DNA of 64,000 nucleotides from Mycolicibacterium sp. HK-90 (GTDB lineage Bacteria; Actinomycetota; Actinomycetes; Mycobacteriales; Mycobacteriaceae), in the NCBI RefSeq assembly GCF_030486405.1, contig NZ_CP129613.1, positions 4,836,001 through 4,900,000 of the forward strand, given 5' to 3'. Below the pieces are notes generated by a model. It made no database searches, was not told where the DNA came from, and was given only the letters and a program-made list of their open reading frames with translations. Below are positions 22,081-29,773 of this stretch, one piece after another. A program made the position numbers and the translations under genes. How positions within the stretch are numbered: position 1 is the first letter of the stretch; each line of letters opens with the position of its first letter.

Positions 22081-23280
22081 ATGTCCGGCGAAGTTGCTAT
22101 AGCGCTGGCCCTGGCGCTGATGCTGGCGGCGGTCGCCGCCGTCGTCGTGGTGCGTACCCGAAAAGTGGTGGCCACCCCCACCGAACGGGCCGTGCACGCC
22201 GCGCTGCACACCGCCGCGCAGGCCGCCCGCGCGCTCCGCCAGGGTCTCGACACCGAGTCCGCACAGACCGCGGCCCCCTATCTCCGCGAGCTCACCGGCA
22301 CCGCGGGGCTGGCCCTGTTCGACGAGGACGCGGCCCTCCTGGCCCGCGATCACGACGACGAGGCGATCTGGCAGTCCGACACCGCCGACGTCTGCGCCGA
22401 CACCGCCCGGGAGTCGATCAGTGCCGGGCGACGCGTGCTGCGCACCGCGCGGTCGACGGCGGTGGTGGCCCAGCCCCTGCTGACCGAGGGCGGCGAGGTG
22501 CTCGGCGCGCTGGTGGTGCTGGCACCGGCCAGCCCGGGCCCGGGCATGCTCGGCGCGGTCGGCGAGGTGGCCCGTTATGCCGCCAGCCAGATCGAGCTGG
22601 CCGAGCTCGACGCGTCACGCGCCCGGCTGGACCGGGCCGAGGTGCTGGCCCTGCGCGCCCAGATCAGCCCGCATTTCATCTACAACGCGCTCAATACCAT
22701 CGCGTCGTTCGTGCGTACCGATCCCGACCGGGCCCGCGAATTGATCCTGGAGTTCGCCGACTTCACCCGTTACTCGTTCCGCGCGGCCGGGCAGTACACC
22801 ACGCTGGCCGACGAGCTGCGCAACATCGACCGCTACCTCACCCTCGAGCGGGCTCGGTTCGGGAGCAATCTCCGGGTGCGGCTGCAGGTGGCCCCCGAGG
22901 TGCTCAACGTCGTGGTGCCGTTCCTGGCACTGCAGCCCCTGGTGGAGAACGCGGTGCGGCACGGGCTGGCCGGGCAGGGCGGCGGGTCGGTCGAGATCGT
23001 GGCGCGCGACGCGGGTGCCGAATGCGTGATCACCGTCGAGGACGACGGCGCAGGCATGGATCCCGACACCCTGCGGGCCGGGCCCGGCGACGCACTGGCC
23101 GACCGGACCGGCGAATCCGCCCATGTCGGGCTGACCAATGTGGACCATCGGCTGCGCGCGGCCTTCGGCAACGACTACGGTCTGGTGGTCGAGACAGCTG
23201 TCGGCGCGGGCACCAAAGTGGTGATGCGCGTACCGAAGTTCCGTTCGGGGGTACGAGCCAGCGGAGGTGCGTTCGCGTGA
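22081..23280 (+). CDS. LytS/YehU-family sensor histidine kinase
   Basis: This 399-residue kinase has one N-terminal transmembrane helix (about residues 4-24), a GAF-like sensor region (about 60-175), the His-kinase box RAQISPHFIYNALN with phospho-acceptor His198, and an HATPase domain (QPLVENAVRHG; DDGAGMD). This is the LytS/YehU/BtsS class that phosphorylates LytTR regulators. It differs from the E. coli members in having only one membrane helix. Its stop overlaps the response regulator start by 4 bp. TAAGGT at 22065-22070 could be its -10 box. Confidence 0.9.
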   Translation: MSGEVAIALALALMLAAVAAVVVVRTRKVVATPTERAVHAALHTAAQAARALRQGLDTESAQTAAPYLRELTGTAGLALFDEDAALLARDHDDEAIWQSDTADVCADTARESISAGRRVLRTARSTAVVAQPLLTEGGEVLGALVVLAPASPGPGMLGAVGEVARYAASQIELAELDASRARLDRAEVLALRAQISPHFIYNALNTIASFVRTDPDRARELILEFADFTRYSFRAAGQYTTLADELRNIDRYLTLERARFGSNLRVRLQVAPEVLNVVVPFLALQPLVENAVRHGLAGQGGGSVEIVARDAGAECVITVEDDGAGMDPDTLRAGPGDALADRTGESAHVGLTNVDHRLRAAFGNDYGLVVETAVGAGTKVVMRVPKFRSGVRASGGAFA

Positions 23281-24065
23281 GTGCAGGCCTGACGGTGCTC
23301 GCCGTCGACGACGAGGCACCCGCGCTCGACGAGCTGGCCTACCTGTTGGGCCGGCATGCCGATGTCGGCCACGTGCACACCGCGTCCGACGCCACCTCGG
23401 CCCTGCGCGAACTCAACCAGCACGCGATCGACGCGGTGTTCCTCGACATCAACATGCCCGGCCTGTCGGGAATCGAATTGGCCGGAGTGCTCGCCAATTA
23501 CGCCAACCGCCCGGCCGTGGTGTTCGTGACCGCCCACGAGGACAAGGCGGTGGCGGCCTTCGACGTGGGTGCCGTCGACTATCTGCTCAAACCGATCCGG
23601 CAGGACCGGCTCGACGAAGCGGTGCGCCGGGTGGCCGCGGGTACTCAGGCCACCCCTGCCGCGGCTGCCGCCCAGGAGGACCAGGACTCCGACGTCATTC
23701 CCGCCGAGCTGGGCGGCATCACCCACCTGGTGCCCCGCGACAGCATCGGCTGGGTCGAGGCCGAGGGCGACTATGCCCGGCTGCATTCGGCCACCGGTGC
23801 ACACCTGGTCCGAATCCCGTTGAGCACCTTGGAGACCCGCTGGCGCGATCACGGCTTCCAGCGCATCCACCGGTCCTACCTGGTGTCGCTGCGCCAGGTG
23901 ACCGGGCTGCGCACGGCCGACGGCGCGGTCCTGGTGCGGCTACGCGCCAACGGCACCTCGCCGGCCGTGGAGCTGCCGGTGAGCCGACGTCAGGCCCGCG
24001 AGCTACGCGACCGGCTGGTCCGGGATCCGATGCGCAATCTCAAGCCTGCGGGCAGCGATGAGTGA
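23277..24065 (+). CDS. LytTR-family response regulator
   Basis: This 262-residue regulator has an N-terminal receiver domain with phospho-acceptor Asp57 (DAVFLDINMPG), the acidic pair Asp11-Asp12 and the conserved Lys (YLLKPI). Its C-terminal LytTR DNA-binding domain runs from about residue 150 to 250 (WVEAEGDYARLH; FQRIHRSYLVSL). The start is GTG 23277 within GTGA, after GGAGG. It is the partner of the LytS kinase and probably controls the flanking symporter genes; a candidate LytTR operator lies at 26170-26198. Confidence 0.92.
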   Translation: MSAGLTVLAVDDEAPALDELAYLLGRHADVGHVHTASDATSALRELNQHAIDAVFLDINMPGLSGIELAGVLANYANRPAVVFVTAHEDKAVAAFDVGAVDYLLKPIRQDRLDEAVRRVAAGTQATPAAAAAQEDQDSDVIPAELGGITHLVPRDSIGWVEAEGDYARLHSATGAHLVRIPLSTLETRWRDHGFQRIHRSYLVSLRQVTGLRTADGAVLVRLRANGTSPAVELPVSRRQARELRDRLVRDPMRNLKPAGSDE

Positions 24066-24432
24066 TCGGCCCACACCGCAGCGCCAACGCGTGGTGCTGG
24101 CCCACCGCCGCGGCGCCCGCATGGTGCGCACCCGCATCGAGGTGGCCGAGCAGACGCAGGTGGGCGACGCCCTGGTGCGCGGCCTGGTGCGGACCCAACT
24201 CGGCCTCGCACTGCGCCTCGCCGCGGTGATGATCACGATCGTGGTGTCACTGGTCCTGCTCAACGCCCTCATGCCGAATCTCGCCGCGCTCAGCGTGTTC
24301 GGGATCCGGCTGAACTGGCTTATCCTGGCCGGGCTGCTGTATCCACTGCTGTACGGCGTGGGGCGGCTGTATGTGCGGCTGGCCGAACAGGGCGAGCGGG
24401 ACTTCGTCCAGGTCGTCGACAGCGAACCATGA
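24058..24432 (+). CDS. Small two-helix membrane protein paired with symporter
   Basis: This 124-residue protein has a basic N-terminus of about 50 residues and two transmembrane helices (about residues 50-72 and 82-103). It overlaps the regulator gene by 8 bp and the symporter start by 4 bp. The layout mirrors the DUF485 gene placed before acetate symporter genes (yjcH before actP in E. coli), and a second DUF485-like gene occurs before the second symporter here. Sequence similarity to DUF485 is weak to my eye, so the family is inferred from topology and position. Confidence 0.7.
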   Translation: MSDRPTPQRQRVVLAHRRGARMVRTRIEVAEQTQVGDALVRGLVRTQLGLALRLAAVMITIVVSLVLLNALMPNLAALSVFGIRLNWLILAGLLYPLLYGVGRLYVRLAEQGERDFVQVVDSEP

Positions 24433-26159
24433 CCGGAGCACCGCTCACCGCCGCCGCCCTGCTGGCCGCCGTGGTGGCCACGATCGCCATCGGCGCCTAC
24501 GGAGTCCGGTTGTCACGCACCACCTCCGACTTCCTGGTGGCCTCGCGCAGCATCGGGCCGCAGTGGAACGCTGCCGCGATCTCGGGCGAATACCTCTCGG
24601 CCGCCTCGTTTCTCGGGGTGGCCGGGCTGATCGCGAAATACGGGGCCGACGCGCTGTGGTACCCGGTCGGTTTCACCGCGGGCTACCTGGGAGTGCTGTT
24701 GTTCGTGGCGGCACCGCTGCGCCGCTCGGGCGCCTACACCGTCCCCGACTTCGCCGAGTTCCGGCTCGGCTCGGTGGCGCTGCGCAAGGTCGCCATGCTC
24801 GTCGTCGTGGTGATCTGCCTGTTCTATCTGGCACCGCAGTATCAGGGCGCCGGTCTGGCCCTGAAAACGCTTCTGGGCGTTCCGGTCTGGATCGGCCCGA
24901 TACTCGTTGCCACGATCGTCATCACCAGCGTGGTGGCCGGCGGCATGCGGTCGATCACGTTCGTGCAGGCCTTCCAGTACTGGCTCAAACTCACCGCGAT
25001 CGCCATCCCGGCCCTGGCGCTGCTCGGCCTGTTCGTCAACGACCGTGGCGAATTGGGCGGCCCGCTGCCACCGACCGTGCAGCAGCAGACCACCGTGCAG
25101 ATCGAGACCGACGTGGTGGTGCAGGTCATCGAGCCGGCCGGGATCAGCGTGACCGGCGACCTGGACGGTCGTCACGTCGAGTCCACCCGGATCACCGCGC
25201 CCGGGCAGCACACCTTCGGTGCGGGCACCACGCTGACCCTGGCCGCCGGGGCCGCCACCCCCGTGGTGGCCGGCACCCCGGGCACGGGCAGCGAGTGGAT
25301 CGCTTCCGGTGGCGGCCTGGGCGGCGGACATCCGCTCTACCAGGTGTTGTCGATCATCGTCGCGACGTTCCTTGGCACGATGGGTCTGCCGCACGTGCTG
25401 GTCCGGTTCTACACCAACCCGGACGGGCGGGATGCCCGGCGTACCGCGCTGGCCGTGGTCGCACTGCTGTCGGTGTTCTATTTCTTCCCCATCCTGCTCG
25501 GGGTGTTCTCCCGGTTGTACGTCCCGCAACTGCTGATCACCGGAACCGCCGACGCCGCAGTGCTTCTGGCACCGGGAGCGGCCGTGGGCGGCATCGGTGG
25601 CCAGCTGCTGGCCGCCCTCGTCGCCGCCGGTGCCATCGCGGCGTTCCTGGCCACCTCCTCGGGTCTGCTGGTCAGCATCGCCGGTGCGCTGGCCACCGAT
25701 GTGTTGCGCGGCCGGGTCCGGGATTTCCGGATCGCCGCGCTCGTCGGCGGGCTGATCCCGATTCCCCTGTCGCTGATGGTGTCCGGACTGGAGTTGTCCC
25801 GCAGCGTCGGGCTGGCGTTCGCCGTCGCGGCGTCCACCCTGTGCCCGCTGCTGGTGCTCGGCATCTGGTGGCGCCGTCTGACGGTGGCCGGTGCGATGTG
25901 CGGTCTCGTGGTGGGCGGCTGCGTGTGCGGCGGCGCCGTGCTGGTGGCCATCACCGGCGGGGTGGACGACGCCGCGCTCGGGGGGTGGCCCGCGGTGATG
26001 GTGGGTTACCCCGCGGCGGTCAGCGTGCCGATCGCGTTCCTCACCATGGTCGTGGTCAGCCTGTTCACCCGGCCCTCCCCCGGCATCGCCCAGATCTTCG
26101 CGCGCATGCACGTGCCGGAACGCCTGGGTCTGGGCGTCGAGCGGGTGCCCGCGGGCTGA
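24429..26159 (+). CDS. Sodium:solute symporter, acetate/monocarboxylate type (first copy)
   Basis: This 576-residue SSS-family transporter has about 13 transmembrane helices and the family signatures GEYLSAASFLGVAGLI and GTMGLPHVLVRFYTNP. It is most like ActP/MctC-type cation:monocarboxylate symporters. An unusual insertion of roughly 90 polar residues (about 200-295, Gln/Thr/Val-rich) lies between helices and would face the outside; the second symporter lacks most of it. The gene ends the LytS-LytTR operon, which suggests that substrate sensing controls uptake. The substrate (acetate, pyruvate or lactate) cannot be decided from sequence. Confidence 0.88.
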   Translation: MTGAPLTAAALLAAVVATIAIGAYGVRLSRTTSDFLVASRSIGPQWNAAAISGEYLSAASFLGVAGLIAKYGADALWYPVGFTAGYLGVLLFVAAPLRRSGAYTVPDFAEFRLGSVALRKVAMLVVVVICLFYLAPQYQGAGLALKTLLGVPVWIGPILVATIVITSVVAGGMRSITFVQAFQYWLKLTAIAIPALALLGLFVNDRGELGGPLPPTVQQQTTVQIETDVVVQVIEPAGISVTGDLDGRHVESTRITAPGQHTFGAGTTLTLAAGAATPVVAGTPGTGSEWIASGGGLGGGHPLYQVLSIIVATFLGTMGLPHVLVRFYTNPDGRDARRTALAVVALLSVFYFFPILLGVFSRLYVPQLLITGTADAAVLLAPGAAVGGIGGQLLAALVAAGAIAAFLATSSGLLVSIAGALATDVLRGRVRDFRIAALVGGLIPIPLSLMVSGLELSRSVGLAFAVAASTLCPLLVLGIWWRRLTVAGAMCGLVVGGCVCGGAVLVAITGGVDDAALGGWPAVMVGYPAAVSVPIAFLTMVVVSLFTRPSPGIAQIFARMHVPERLGLGVERVPAG

Positions 26160-26169
26160 CTGCCCGCTC

Positions 26170-26198
26170 ACCGCTCAGCCCCCTCGACCGACCGTTCA
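26170..26198 (+). promoter_or_regulatory. Candidate LytTR operator: two direct repeats with 13-bp spacer
   Basis: ACCGCTCA (26170-26177) and ACCGTTCA (26191-26198) are separated by exactly 13 bp. As I recall, the E. coli LytTR regulator YehT/BtsR binds two direct repeats of ACC(G/A)CT(C/T)A separated by 13 bp. The first repeat fits exactly and the second has one mismatch. A further exact ACCGCTCA lies at 26277-26284, and the next gene starts at 26308. The site therefore probably lets the upstream LytTR regulator control the second symporter pair. Confidence 0.6.
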
Positions 26199-26307
26199 GC
26201 GCAGCGACGGCCGAATTCGGCGTATCGATCTCAATAGCACCCCCGTGTGACCCAGCTCTCAATTAGGTTCAGGCGAACCGCTCACCGTCAACTGTCAGGA
26301 GTCACCG

Positions 26308-26655
26308 GTGCCCGAAACCGACCTTCCCGCGAGGGTTGCCCCCACCGGGGAGCAGTTCCTCGCCGCGCAGGCCAGTCCCGAATTTCAGGAACTGCGTACC
26401 AGACTGCGCCGCTTCGTCTTTCCGATGACGGCGTTCTTTCTGCTGTGGTACGCCTTGTACGTCGCGCTCGGTGCGTTCGCCCACGAGTTCATGGCGATCC
26501 GGGTGTTCGGAAACATCAACGTCGGCCTGCTGATCGGGCTCGGCCAGTTCATCACCACGTTCGTGATCACCGGCCTGTACGTGCGTTTCGCCAACAAGGA
26601 ACTCGACCCGCGGGCCTCCGCCATCCGTGAAGAACTGGAAGGTGAGACCCGATGA
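26308..26655 (+). CDS. DUF485 family membrane protein
   Basis: This 115-residue protein of the YjcH/DUF485 type has two transmembrane helices (about residues 34-55 and 70-92) and the typical motifs RRFVFPMTAFFLLWYALYV and VGLLIGLGQFITTFVITGLYV. It starts at GTG with AGGAG 6 nt upstream. It overlaps the following symporter start by 4 bp. In other bacteria this gene is co-transcribed with an acetate symporter; its exact role is not established. Confidence 0.9.
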   Translation: MPETDLPARVAPTGEQFLAAQASPEFQELRTRLRRFVFPMTAFFLLWYALYVALGAFAHEFMAIRVFGNINVGLLIGLGQFITTFVITGLYVRFANKELDPRASAIREELEGETR

Positions 26656-28283
26656 CCGTCACCACCCTCGCCGCCGAGACGGTCGGTAACCCCGCCGCCA
26701 ACATCGGCATCTTCAGCCTGTTCGTCGTGGTCACGATGATCGTGGTGATCAAGGCCAGCAAGCGAAATGCCACCGCCGACGAGTTCTTCACCGGTGGCCG
26801 CGGGTTCTCCGGCCCGCAGAACGGCATCGCCATCGCCGGCGACTATCTGTCGGCAGCCAGCTTCCTCGGCATTGCCGGAGCCATCGCGGTGTACGGCTAC
26901 GACGGCTTCCTGTACTCCATCGGCTTCCTGGTGGCCTGGCTGGTGGCGCTGCTACTGGTGGCCGAATTGCTGCGCAACACAGGCAAATTCACCATGGCCG
27001 ACGTGCTGAGCTTCCGGCTCAAACAGCGCCCGGTCCGACTGGCCGCGGCCACCTCCACGCTGACGGTGTCCCTGTTCTACCTGCTGGCCCAGATGGCCGG
27101 CGCCGGCGGCCTGGTCGCGCTGCTGCTCGACGTCAACAGCAAGGCCGGGCAGTCGATCGTGATCGCCGTCGTCGGCATCCTGATGATCGTTTACGTGCTG
27201 GTCGGCGGCATGAAGGGCACCACCTGGGTGCAGATCATCAAGGCGGTGCTGCTGATCGCCGGTGCCGCACTGATGACCGTGATGGTGCTGAGCAAGTTCG
27301 GGCTGAACTTCTCCGAGATCCTCGGATCGGCGCAGTCGGCAATCTCCGGATCGACCACCACGGGTGTCTCTGGCCGCGACGTGCTGGCCCCGGGCGCGCA
27401 GTACGGCGGCTCGCTGACCTCGCAGATCAACTTCATCTCGCTGGCGCTGGCGCTGGTGCTGGGCACCGCGGGCCTGCCTCACGTGCTGATGCGGTTCTAC
27501 ACCGTGCCGACCGCCAAAGAGGCGCGTCGTTCGGTGGTGTGGGCGATCGCGCTGATCGGCGCCTTCTACCTGTTCACACTGGTGCTCGGCTACGGCGCTG
27601 CCGCGCTCGTCGGCCCGGACCGCATCCTGGGCGCGGCCGGCGGGGTGAACTCGGCGGCTCCGCTGCTGGCCTTCGAACTCGGCGGGGTGATCCTGCTCGG
27701 CGTCATCTCGGCGGTGGCCTTCGCGACCATCCTGGCGGTGGTCGCCGGCCTGACGATCACCGCGTCGGCGTCGTTCGCCCACGACATCTACGCCTCGGTG
27801 CTCAAGTCCCACAAGGTGACCGAGGACGAGCAGGTGCGGGTTTCGCGCATCACCGCGGTCGTCTTGGGTGTGTTCGCAATCGGGCTCGGCATCCTGGCCA
27901 ACGGTCAGAACGTGGCGTTCCTGGTGGCGCTGGCGTTCGCGGTGGCCGCCGCGGCCAACCTGCCGACGATCCTGTACTCGCTGTACTGGAAACGGTTCAA
28001 CACCCGCGGTGCCCTGTGGAGCATGTACGGCGGCCTGATCTCGACCATCGTCCTGATCGTGTTCTCTCCCGCGGTATCGGGCAGCAAGACCGCGATGATC
28101 CCCGGCGCGGACTTCGCGTACTTCCCGCTGGCCAACCCGGGCATCGTGTCCATCCCGCTCGCGTTCGCCCTCGGCATCATCGGCACGCTCACCTCTCCGG
28201 ACACCGGGGACGCCGAGCTCAACGCCGAGATGGAGGTGCGGTCGCTGACCGGGGTCGGCGCCGAGAAGGCGGTCGCGCACTGA
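26652..28283 (+). CDS. Cation/acetate-type symporter (second copy)
   Basis: This 543-residue SSS-family protein has about 13 transmembrane helices, the opening GDYLSAASFLGIAGAIAVYGYDGFLY and the conserved GTAGLPHVLMRFYTVP. It is closer to canonical ActP-type acetate symporters than the first copy and lacks most of its long outer insertion. It follows the DUF485 gene with a 4-bp overlap. It is probably regulated by the LytS-LytTR pair through the repeats at 26170-26198. A T-less hairpin follows 17 bp after the stop. Confidence 0.92.
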   Translation: MTVTTLAAETVGNPAANIGIFSLFVVVTMIVVIKASKRNATADEFFTGGRGFSGPQNGIAIAGDYLSAASFLGIAGAIAVYGYDGFLYSIGFLVAWLVALLLVAELLRNTGKFTMADVLSFRLKQRPVRLAAATSTLTVSLFYLLAQMAGAGGLVALLLDVNSKAGQSIVIAVVGILMIVYVLVGGMKGTTWVQIIKAVLLIAGAALMTVMVLSKFGLNFSEILGSAQSAISGSTTTGVSGRDVLAPGAQYGGSLTSQINFISLALALVLGTAGLPHVLMRFYTVPTAKEARRSVVWAIALIGAFYLFTLVLGYGAAALVGPDRILGAAGGVNSAAPLLAFELGGVILLGVISAVAFATILAVVAGLTITASASFAHDIYASVLKSHKVTEDEQVRVSRITAVVLGVFAIGLGILANGQNVAFLVALAFAVAAAANLPTILYSLYWKRFNTRGALWSMYGGLISTIVLIVFSPAVSGSKTAMIPGADFAYFPLANPGIVSIPLAFALGIIGTLTSPDTGDAELNAEMEVRSLTGVGAEKAVAH

Positions 28284-28300: not shown

Positions 28301-28346
28301 GTCACGCTGGAGTGGCGCTGCAGCCCGCCAGCCACTCCAGCGTGAC
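28301..28346 (+). terminator. Long perfect hairpin without T-tract
   Basis: The 16-bp arms (28301-28316, GTCACGCTGGAGTGGC, with 28331-28346) are perfectly complementary around a 14-nt loop, 17 bp after the second symporter stop. No run of T follows. It is probably a mycobacterial-type terminator or a dispersed intergenic palindrome. Confidence 0.6.
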
Positions 28347-28420: not shown

Positions 28421-29773
28421 ATGACACTTGCTGCCGATCCAGCCGCCGAGAAGGCCCGCGTAACGGGGCTGTTCCCGACACCTGCCGAAGTCGAGGCGCA
28501 GACCCCGGCCGACCGGGACCGGGCGATCGATGTCATCCGGATCGTCTCGCTCGTCGGTGTGGTGTTCGGCCATACCGTCATGGCCACCAGCACGATCCGC
28601 GACGACGTGTTCATCTGGAGCAACCTGCTCACCACATCCGTGGTGTTTCAGGCGCTGACCTGGGTGTTCCAGATCATGCCGCTGTTCTTCTTCGCCGGCG
28701 TCGCCGCCTCGGTGCAGTCGTGGCGGCCCGGCGCTTCCTGGGGCGGCTGGCTGCTGAAGCGGTGCACGCGGTTGTACCGGCCGGTGTTCTACTACCTGGC
28801 GTTCTGGACGGTCGCCCTGGCGGTGTTGCGGTTCGTGCTGCCGGAGCACGTCTACGAACCCATTGCCGGCATTTCGATCCAGCTGCTGTGGTTCCTGGGC
28901 GCCTACGTCCTCGTGCTCGCGGCGGTGCCGCTGCTGGCCCGCATCACCACCACCGCACAGGTGGCCGGCGCCGTCGTCGGCACCTACGCGTGCATCGCGG
29001 CTGTCGACGCGATCCGGATCAACATGGACGGCTACGCCTCGCTCGGTTATCTCAACACCGTGGTGTGGCTGATCCCCGGCGTGTTCGGGGTGGCATACCG
29101 CCGGAACCTGCTGTCCAGCGGCGCCGCACTCAAGATCGGTACCGGCATGCTGGGCATCAACCTGGTGCTGCTGTATTTCGGCCCCTACGAGCTCAGCCTG
29201 GTCGGCATCGAGACCCAGCAGCTGAAGAACATGACGCCGCCGTCGCTGTTGCTGGCCGGGCACGCAATCATGATGTGCGCGTTCGCGATTGCTGCCGCTC
29301 CCGCCATCAACCGGTGGGCACAGCGACCGCGGGTGTGGTGGCTCACCGCGATCGGCAATTCCGGCGCGATGACGCTGTACCTGTGGCACATGCCGCTGTT
29401 GCTCGGCATGCACCTGGTGTTCGACCACCTCGGCCTGGACCGTTACGACCCGGCCTCTCCGGGCTTCGTCGCGCTGTCGGTGCTGCAGCTGGCGTTGATG
29501 GCCGGCCTCGTCGCGATGGCGTTCATCGCGCTGCGACCGCTGGAGAACGACCCGCTGCCGCTGTGGGACGGCGGTGTGGTGAAGCAGACCGGTATCCGCA
29601 GCGCCGTCGTCGGTGCGCTGCTGTGTGTGGCCGGCGCGGCCACGCTCACCTCGGTGGCCTGGGGCCTGAAGGACCAGGGCGTCTACTGCGTGGCGGTGAT
29701 GCTGGTGGCACTTGTCGCGGCCCGCGCACTGGCGTCTACGCGCATGCCTGAGCAACGCGATCGAGTCGAGTGA
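28421..29773 (+). CDS. Membrane acyltransferase, acyltransferase-3 family
   Basis: This 450-residue protein has about ten to eleven transmembrane helices. It begins with a cytosolic arm and then IDVIRIVSLVGVVFGHT, the first helix of the OafA/YrhL family with the conserved Arg and His. FFFAGVAASVQS and TLYLWHMPLLLGMHL are also typical. These enzymes acylate sugars, lipids or antibiotics using acyl-CoA from the cytosol; the acceptor is not evident here. The gene stands alone. Its 3' end overlaps the convergent AbiEi-like gene by 38 bp. Confidence 0.85.
   Translation: MTLAADPAAEKARVTGLFPTPAEVEAQTPADRDRAIDVIRIVSLVGVVFGHTVMATSTIRDDVFIWSNLLTTSVVFQALTWVFQIMPLFFFAGVAASVQSWRPGASWGGWLLKRCTRLYRPVFYYLAFWTVALAVLRFVLPEHVYEPIAGISIQLLWFLGAYVLVLAAVPLLARITTTAQVAGAVVGTYACIAAVDAIRINMDGYASLGYLNTVVWLIPGVFGVAYRRNLLSSGAALKIGTGMLGINLVLLYFGPYELSLVGIETQQLKNMTPPSLLLAGHAIMMCAFAIAAAPAINRWAQRPRVWWLTAIGNSGAMTLYLWHMPLLLGMHLVFDHLGLDRYDPASPGFVALSVLQLALMAGLVAMAFIALRPLENDPLPLWDGGVVKQTGIRSAVVGALLCVAGAATLTSVAWGLKDQGVYCVAVMLVALVAARALASTRMPEQRDRVE

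Follow-up and report, generated by a model that had tools for sequence, protein, structure and literature searches.

A BtsSR-like two-component system and its predicted acetate-scavenging regulon in Actinomycetota

The DNA analyzed here comes from Mycolicibacterium sp. HK-90 (RefSeq assembly GCF_030486405.1, contig NZ_CP129613.1, our contig 1, positions 4836001-4900000 within a 6.49-Mb genome); this whole stretch of 64,000 nucleotides is called the window below. It contains a locus of six plus-strand genes, which we denote K (sensor histidine kinase), R (LytTR response regulator), d (small membrane protein), S (SSS/SLC5 symporter), D (DUF485 protein) and M (monocarboxylate transporter). We consider it likely that the locus belongs to a regulon of Actinomycetota for scavenging acetate, as a short-chain monocarboxylate, under the control of a two-component system resembling BtsSR. 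Comparison of genomes shows K-R-d-S to be a conserved unit. It likewise identifies the predicted operator of R as a direct repeat whose two ACCGYTCR halves are separated by 13 bp; this operator lies upstream of D-mctC and of the acetyl-CoA synthetase gene acs where R is present and is missing where R is absent. Judged from these sequences, the locus represents a real and widespread LytTR-type system for small acids, with a transporter where a receptor would be expected and a putative operator that marks a predictable regulon.

In the mechanism that we propose, K, held by a one-helix anchor and equipped with a cytoplasmic GAF domain, would phosphorylate R when the acid is available. Phosphorylated R would bind the repeat and activate both the DUF485-MctC importer and acetyl-CoA synthetase, and through this joint activation the uptake and the activation of the acid would rise together. 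The pair d-S may, more tentatively, act upstream of this switch: it might be a basal importer supplying the ligand, or a transporter from which K receives a signal.

The conserved unit, the predicted operator and its targets

The coordinates bear out the order and strand given for the six genes in a first-pass annotation of this DNA, as well as its statement that the first four genes overlap and the last two likewise: K and R share 4 bp, R and d 8 bp, d and S 4 bp, and D and M 4 bp. R (23277..24065, plus strand, 262 aa, GTG start) combines a receiver and a LytTR domain, as recognized by Pfam and NCBIfam. Its best NCBIfam model is BtsR (NF008677), with 150.9 bits, under the cut-off of 246. R is the sole LytTR protein found in the window genome, and a LytTR operator here therefore has one obvious owner. 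The orphan LytTR regulator SCO1220 of Streptomyces coelicolor, a candidate orthologue of R, carries no name in the table of PMC9739842, and in the excerpt of an ArgR study (PMC3293853) it figures as a probed promoter and nothing more. Literature searches among open-licence papers yielded no description that we recognized as the K-R-d-S system, and as far as that searched literature goes the K-R system is unnamed.

Among 150 genomes of the order, including that of the window, R (>150 bits) was found in 79, S (E<=1e-30) in 77 and both in 76. The neighbourhoods of 56 strong R matches contain K in 55 cases, S in 54, d in 49 and D and M in 40 each. Our collection of named loci, in which at least 595 stretches matched and at least 516 were relatives, shares some genomes with this set (e.g. 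L327, L043); the best 80 were kept, several of them cut by contig ends, and they contain K in 76, d and S in 71 each, D in 46 and M in 41. The gene d occurs together with R and S in 49 of the 56 loci and in 71 of the 80 named ones. The linked arrangement, whose absence from related genomes had been set as a refutation of the first-pass annotation, is thus present in them. Its placement "in mycobacteria" has to be abandoned, as the system is spread over Actinomycetota: K-R occurs in fast-growing mycobacteria and reaches Streptomyces, Nocardia and Micromonospora, and in the window's own genus R occurs in 5 of 14 genomes and is absent from 9. The named Streptomyces loci have the order R-d-S-K. 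Many genomes of the group labelled f14 (e.g. G083, G144, G104, G118) have two strong R matches, which in G144 and G083 belong to two separate R-S loci. The full K-R-d-S-D-M order with the operator, and with an R 71% identical, was also seen on a contig labelled as an Acidobacteria bin (L285), probably a misbinned actinobacterial contig.

The gap between S and D holds the direct repeat ACCGCTCA-N13-ACCGTTCA, the half-sites of which (26170..26177 and 26191..26198, plus strand; the second with the extended form GACCGTTCAGCGCA) start 21 bp apart. The "intergenic repeats" noted earlier are therefore present, in the form of this one direct repeat. In half-site and spacing it matches, at the level of sequence, the yjiY site of BtsR, ACC[GA]CT[CT]A twice with a 13-bp spacer; in the oligonucleotide of E. 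coli BtsR (YehT) listed in Table 1 of PMC4847170, ACCGCTTA and ACCACTCA are separated by 13 bases. Our first operator pattern was shaped by the known BtsR motif as well as by the window. The S-D gaps of relatives contain ACCGYTCR twice, with the same 21 bp between starts, and many of them depart from ACC[GA]CT[CT]A in having T instead of C as fifth base or G instead of A as eighth. In four loci of the group f16 (L053, L054, L057, L061) the best two halves lie at a distance of 42 bp, and a weaker half is found in between.

A repeat finder run on the window reported only another 10-nt pair and not ACCGCTCA/ACCGTTCA. Simulated sequence yielded 2 pairs of this kind or better (15 of 16 positions) per 1.04 Mb. 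The pattern ACCRYTYR-N13-ACCRYTYR has two exact matches in the 6.49-Mb genome, the second within a 343-aa open reading frame (ORF), against four for a backwards control; two other one-mismatch sites of this genome (L200, L201) lie within ORFs and were rejected. Genome-wide, the repeat by itself is not beyond chance; what is beyond it is the conserved place of the repeat across species.

An operator matrix was derived from the 11 D-M sites found in the window's family, and with it we scored the 400 bp upstream of D. The p values refer to single regions compared with shuffles and carry no correction, and the genomes are related to one another. The window's family (label f1) was sampled with 11 R-bearing and 9 R-lacking genomes. 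The label f15 is read as Micromonosporaceae on the strength of shared contigs (G063 contig 24 and L315, Micromonospora pattaloongensis; G112 contig 110 and L328, Micromonospora sp.), and f14 (Pseudonocardiaceae) and f16 (Blastococcus-like) were guessed by resemblance to named loci. All 11 loci of the window's family (the window and L032-L041) have the operator 133-215 bp ahead of the D match, and no other site of the whole locus outscores it in any of them. In Micromonosporaceae, D-M operons located apart from R have it in 15 of 15 cases (scores 10-25, p<=0.005). R-lacking genomes show a score above 6 before D in 1 of 20 (L107, 18.7). Within the window's genus the operator is present in 5/5 R-bearing and 0/5 R-lacking genomes (Fisher 0.008), and in the best 80 named loci it was found before D in 36 of the 45 testable ones (p<=0.02). 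On the genome scale, the pattern CCGYTCRNCG-N11-CCGYTCRNCGCA with at most one mismatch gave 123 matches in the 79 R-bearing genomes, where its backwards control gave 45. In the 71 R-lacking genomes the figures were 28 for the pattern and 37 for the control.

The genes behind this site are D (26308..26655, plus strand, 115 aa, GTG start; PF04341, DUF485, 126.2 bits) and M (26652..28283, plus strand, 543 aa), which has an SSF domain by Pfam and exceeds the curated MctC model (NF058657) with 904.7 bits against a cut-off of 670. According to PMC7918813 the substrates of MctC are acetate, propionate and pyruvate; M is assigned to this family by its sequence score. We predict that D-M is a direct target of R. 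The predicted control by R of a second symporter, in an operon of its own, through the intergenic repeats, as suggested earlier, has gained in substance, in that the site is conserved, tracks R and has the architecture of a BtsR site.

The second predicted target is acs (TIGR02188). Its upstream region has a site in 10 of 11 R-bearing members of the family at p<=0.035 (8 of 11 at p<=0.005; scores 9-30) and in 0 of 9 R-lacking members (rank test p 0.001; within the genus p 0.0005). In the window genome acs is located about 1 Mb away (C1:5896464-5898347). A site scoring 23.4 is found there 156 bp before the match, and as a predicted target acs removes the description of the circuit as "self-contained". 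The exception is G060, in which the region tested is that of a lower-scoring ligase; a piece of acs lies there directly after D-M, at a contig end (C18:149954). A second ligase, nearest to propionate-CoA ligase and under the model cut-off, shows a site (p<=0.02) in 4 of 6 genomes with R, most strongly in G081, and in 0 of 4 without R. Elsewhere the operator lies after S and before satP-acs in four genomes in which M was not found (G049, G128, G100, G019), before acs in G023, before cstA in G021, and before malate synthase A with a GlcD-like oxidase (under the GlcD cut-offs) in G098 and G139. Five Micromonosporaceae genomes have a perfect operator before a DUF3311 gene and MctP, of which the one tested (L187) scored 769.6 bits against a cut-off of 625. 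The locus itself is adjoined by acs in L295, L322, L333 and L355 and by satP-acs in L356. An acs-like gene was also seen on the opposite strand about 2 kb before K in the two mycobacterial loci L281 and L283 (at about 4.7 kb).

As a control, the regions upstream of the family's icl and malate synthase genes gave sites at p<=0.02 in 1/30 and 1/20 cases (2/50 together); we take these for chance and do not regard the two genes as family targets, the malate synthase stretch moreover including coding sequence. The idea that cstA might be a target in general was also rejected: of 18 genomes with cstA, G021 alone has a clear site, and the match in G081 (17.4, 55 bp before the domain match) is probably intragenic. 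What unites the predicted targets is that they import or activate acetate or small acids related to it. Since M is MctC and acs shares the operator, acetate comes first among the probable substrates, in agreement with the earlier proposal of a circuit for a short-chain acid. In a separate observation, four f14 genomes have a perfect operator-like repeat before a whiB-type gene (L180, L181, L183, L184), confirmed by Pfam in L180.

The kinase and the symporter module beside the regulator

K (22081..23280, plus strand, 399 aa) contains a His_kinase domain (PF06580, 83.2 bits, residues 186-263) and a HATPase_c domain (45.5 bits), and shows no Pfam match to 5TMR-LYT at E<=0.01. All LytS-like kinases carry the 5TMR-LYT input domain, according to PMC10653868, and K is for this reason not one of them. 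The label "LytS kinase" was accordingly dropped after the Pfam scan; it holds for the catalytic part and fails for the input part, which is not a seven-helix receptor. The AlphaFold model of residues 1-185, built from 41 sequences, has a predicted local distance difference test score (pLDDT) of 93.8. It shows an N-terminal helix (residues 2-27), the sole membrane helix, followed by two helices and then the strand-helix order of a GAF domain (about residues 33-184), a domain seen by its fold and without a Pfam GAF match. Foldseek searches with this model found GAF domains, including those of CodY and of a sensor kinase, as well as other folds such as MglB. The model therefore suggests that K has no large extracytoplasmic or multi-helix receptor. 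Mycolicibacterium smegmatis has a relative of K with 85% identity. Among 15 K homologues compared, 9 contain a C-x4-C motif in the GAF region (e.g. CDRVDCPVRG; L304, L308, L312, L316, L320, L325, L329, L333, L338). None of these is from mycobacteria, Nocardia or Rhodococcus, and K of the window has no such motif, which is possibly related to metal or redox chemistry.

The gene d (24058..24432, plus strand, 124 aa) encodes the "two-helix protein" of the first-pass annotation; it does have two helices, and we would now describe it as a divergent relative of DUF485 (20.8 bits, cut-off 28). S (24429..26159, plus strand, 576 aa) belongs to PF00474 (SSF) and passes no curated NCBIfam cut-off: the VC_2705 family TIGR03648 gives 237.5 bits against 320.75, and the ActP models are lower. 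It is 31% identical to M. Its AlphaFold model (pLDDT 80.9) matches the structures of SGLT, NIS, CHT1 and SiaT. The core is conserved across 52 aligned S proteins, and on this evidence we saw no sign that S would be a dead transporter. Its closest relatives among the matches listed are from the Mycolicibacterium fortuitum group (M. houstonense, M. farcinogenes, M. boenickei). A beta-rich extracytoplasmic insert (about residues 210-285, window 25056-25283) is modelled with good confidence; as a candidate sensor part it was set aside, the stretch aligned to residues 198-312 being just 38-48 aa long in 11 of the 52 proteins.

How closely S is bound to the regulator can be judged from its distribution. 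It is present in 76 of the 79 R-bearing genomes and in 1 of the 71 others (Fisher p 6e-38, with kinship ignored). R occurs without S in G004, G033 and G147, and S without R in G096, an incomplete assembly. M was found (E<=1e-120) in 105 of the 150 genomes, 73 with R and 32 without. S is thus tied to R, 76 of its 77 genomes carrying R, and M is not, as 32 of its 105 genomes lack it. The unit of S itself rarely has an operator. In Micromonosporaceae there is none before d in 13 of 13 cases, in 12 of which R and S are 1.3-17 kb apart, and in the named loci a site (p<=0.02) lies upstream of d in 1/70 and of K in 3/73, near the 2% expectation. Because of its co-occurrence with R, its place in the overlapping K-R-d run and the rarity of an operator before its own unit, S looks like a part of the sensing module and not like a second target. 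The earlier statement that the regulator "sits with one transporter" holds for the placement of the genes; the partner, to judge by these traits, resembles a sensing unit more than a target. The same traits would be expected of either a sensor part or a basal supplier of the ligand.

We give close to an even chance to the explanation that the GAF domain of K detects a metabolite inside the cell, and that S and d are merely a co-transcribed uptake system with no role in sensing. The confident GAF fold speaks for it, as several of the matched structures bind small ligands with this fold. So does the preservation of the SLC5 core in S, with AAFLSTSSGL-type residues in one helix, presumably the helix that holds the sodium site in relatives, so that S can probably transport. 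The SLC5 domain of CbrA has moreover been reported as non-essential for signal perception (excerpt of PMC9100948). Against it stand the near-confinement of S to genomes with R, when M so often occurs without it, and the lack of an operator before d even in those Micromonosporaceae in which S is kilobases away from R.

A bolder possibility, which we hold tentatively and regard as somewhat improbable, is that K, d and S make up a single receptor. It would correspond to the proteobacterial SLC5 sensor kinases, but divided over several proteins, with the symporter as a subunit of its own. The SLC5/STAC kinases CrbS, CbrA and RpuS provide a precedent for SLC5 domains in sensing (excerpts of PMC7918813 and PMC9100948), and it is because the CbrA finding stands beside this precedent that we do not rate the sensor-subunit reading higher. 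If it is true, S would bind or move acetate and, with d, set the activity of a single-helix GAF kinase; the transporter of the regulatory operon would report the outside supply and turn on another transporter, MctC, together with acetyl-CoA synthetase. By Pfam, K has no SSF domain and S no kinase domain, hence neither of the two is an SLC5-kinase fusion. An S-K fusion as proof of contact was sought and not found among the best 120 of 7999 S relatives (PF00474 only) or the best 120 of 8000 K relatives (no SSF), an absence that says little because these best 120 matches are all close relatives.

Weighing the regulon

Several observations weigh against an R-controlled acetate regulon as drawn above. 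The matrix is not independent of the 11 family D-M sites on which it was trained, and many genomes are kin, so that the counts overstate the number of independent events. Some R-bearing loci have no site before D (L068, L074, L081-L086); L081-L083 are f15 as well, but there D-M lies beside K and has no operator. The 9 named loci without the site, out of 45, are all of Pseudonocardiaceae type, and Pseudonocardia L350 has it. L125, L126, L128 and L129 (two M copies of G004, one of G086 and the second copy of G083) are siteless too; the upstream stretch of L127 was too short for the test. One R-lacking genome (G101, L107) carries a site, which may be due to chance or have outlasted a lost R. The acs sites of G034 (10.8) and G130 (9.2) are weak. 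Of 36 site-bearing stretches picked among the matches listed, with perfect and recurring ones favoured, 12 concern a monocarboxylate gene or D-M; the other 24 comprise 4 with a whiB-like gene, 1 with K and 19 with nothing recognizably related. In G086 an operator with one mismatch lies before K (L198), and autoregulation may therefore exist in places. Finally, since d overlaps R or directly adjoins it in most loci, the region upstream of d is there the coding sequence of R, and the absence of an operator there consequently says little.

The regulon might also serve a different acid. That the regulon serves chiefly pyruvate, as in BtsSR and PyrSR of E. coli, with the acetate genes secondary, appears unlikely to us, even though BtsR is the nearest model of R, the operator is BtsR-like, and sites precede cstA in G021 and mctP in Micromonosporaceae. 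The acs site is present in 10 of 11 R-bearing family members as opposed to a clear cstA site in 1 of 9 where cstA was found, K is devoid of the membrane domain in which BtsS binds pyruvate, and four genomes have satP-acs where mctC would otherwise stand.

According to the excerpt of PMC4847170, no general consensus unites the sites of the LytTR family, and the repeat might in principle belong to another protein. RamA, RamB and GlxR represent types of regulator to be considered in this respect. In Corynebacterium, other acetate regulators act on mctC and acs, but we consider it very improbable that one of these binds the repeat and that its link with R is a phylogenetic coincidence, since presence and absence of the site follow R within one genus at two unlinked genes, the pattern exceeds its control in R-bearing genomes only, and LytTR sites have this same architecture of a direct repeat.

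An acetate regulon under R thus remains the reading that we prefer, and a few minor features of the locus may be added to it. A -10-like hexamer, TAGGTT (26264..26269, plus strand), lies 65 bp past the second half-site; it is a tentative pattern match, and a scan for sigma-70 consensus promoters found no promoter, this hexamer included. Hexamers resembling it were seen by eye at some relatives. On the 3' side of M there is a perfect 16-nt inverted repeat with a 14-nt loop (28301..28346, plus strand; repeat search), a possible terminator of the D-M operon, which a terminator scan with a loop limit of 8 did not list. The next gene after M encodes an acyltransferase-3 family membrane protein (window 28421-29773, plus strand).

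Comparison with known systems

One of the closest known counterparts is BtsS/BtsR (YehU/YehT) of E. coli with its target btsT (yjiY), which likewise combines a LytTR regulator, an ACC[GA]CT[CT]A repeat with a 13-bp spacer and an importer of a small acid. In contrast to it, K has no 5TMR-LYT pyruvate receptor, the importer is of the SSS type (MctC) and not of the CstA type, a transporter is encoded within the regulatory operon, and acs is a predicted co-target. The resemblance of the operators suggests that the BtsR-type site can be recognized far beyond Gammaproteobacteria.

The mctC gene of Corynebacterium glutamicum follows a DUF485 gene, as does M, which exceeds the curated MctC cut-off. 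There mctC is regulated by RamA and RamB, unlike M, for which control through the predicted R operator is proposed. LytST controls PftAB in Bacillus subtilis, and neither this scheme nor LytSR-lrgAB of staphylococci is known to involve an SSS transporter or acs; the likeness to the present system lies in the LytTR-type control of a pyruvate carrier.

In content the predicted regulon is reminiscent of CrbS/CrbR (MxtR/ErdR) and RpuS/RpuR of Proteobacteria, acetate or pyruvate regulons with acs, actP or mctP in which an SLC5 protein is tied to the kinase. In those systems SLC5 is fused to a hybrid kinase via STAC and the regulator is of the LuxR type, whereas here SLC5 is a separate gene and the regulator is a LytTR protein. 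A two-component system of Actinomycetota, found from Mycolicibacterium to Streptomyces, has thereby obtained a predicted function, operator and regulon, and its symporter gene, separate where those of CbrA and CrbS are fused, offers a natural test of the role of SLC5 in signalling.

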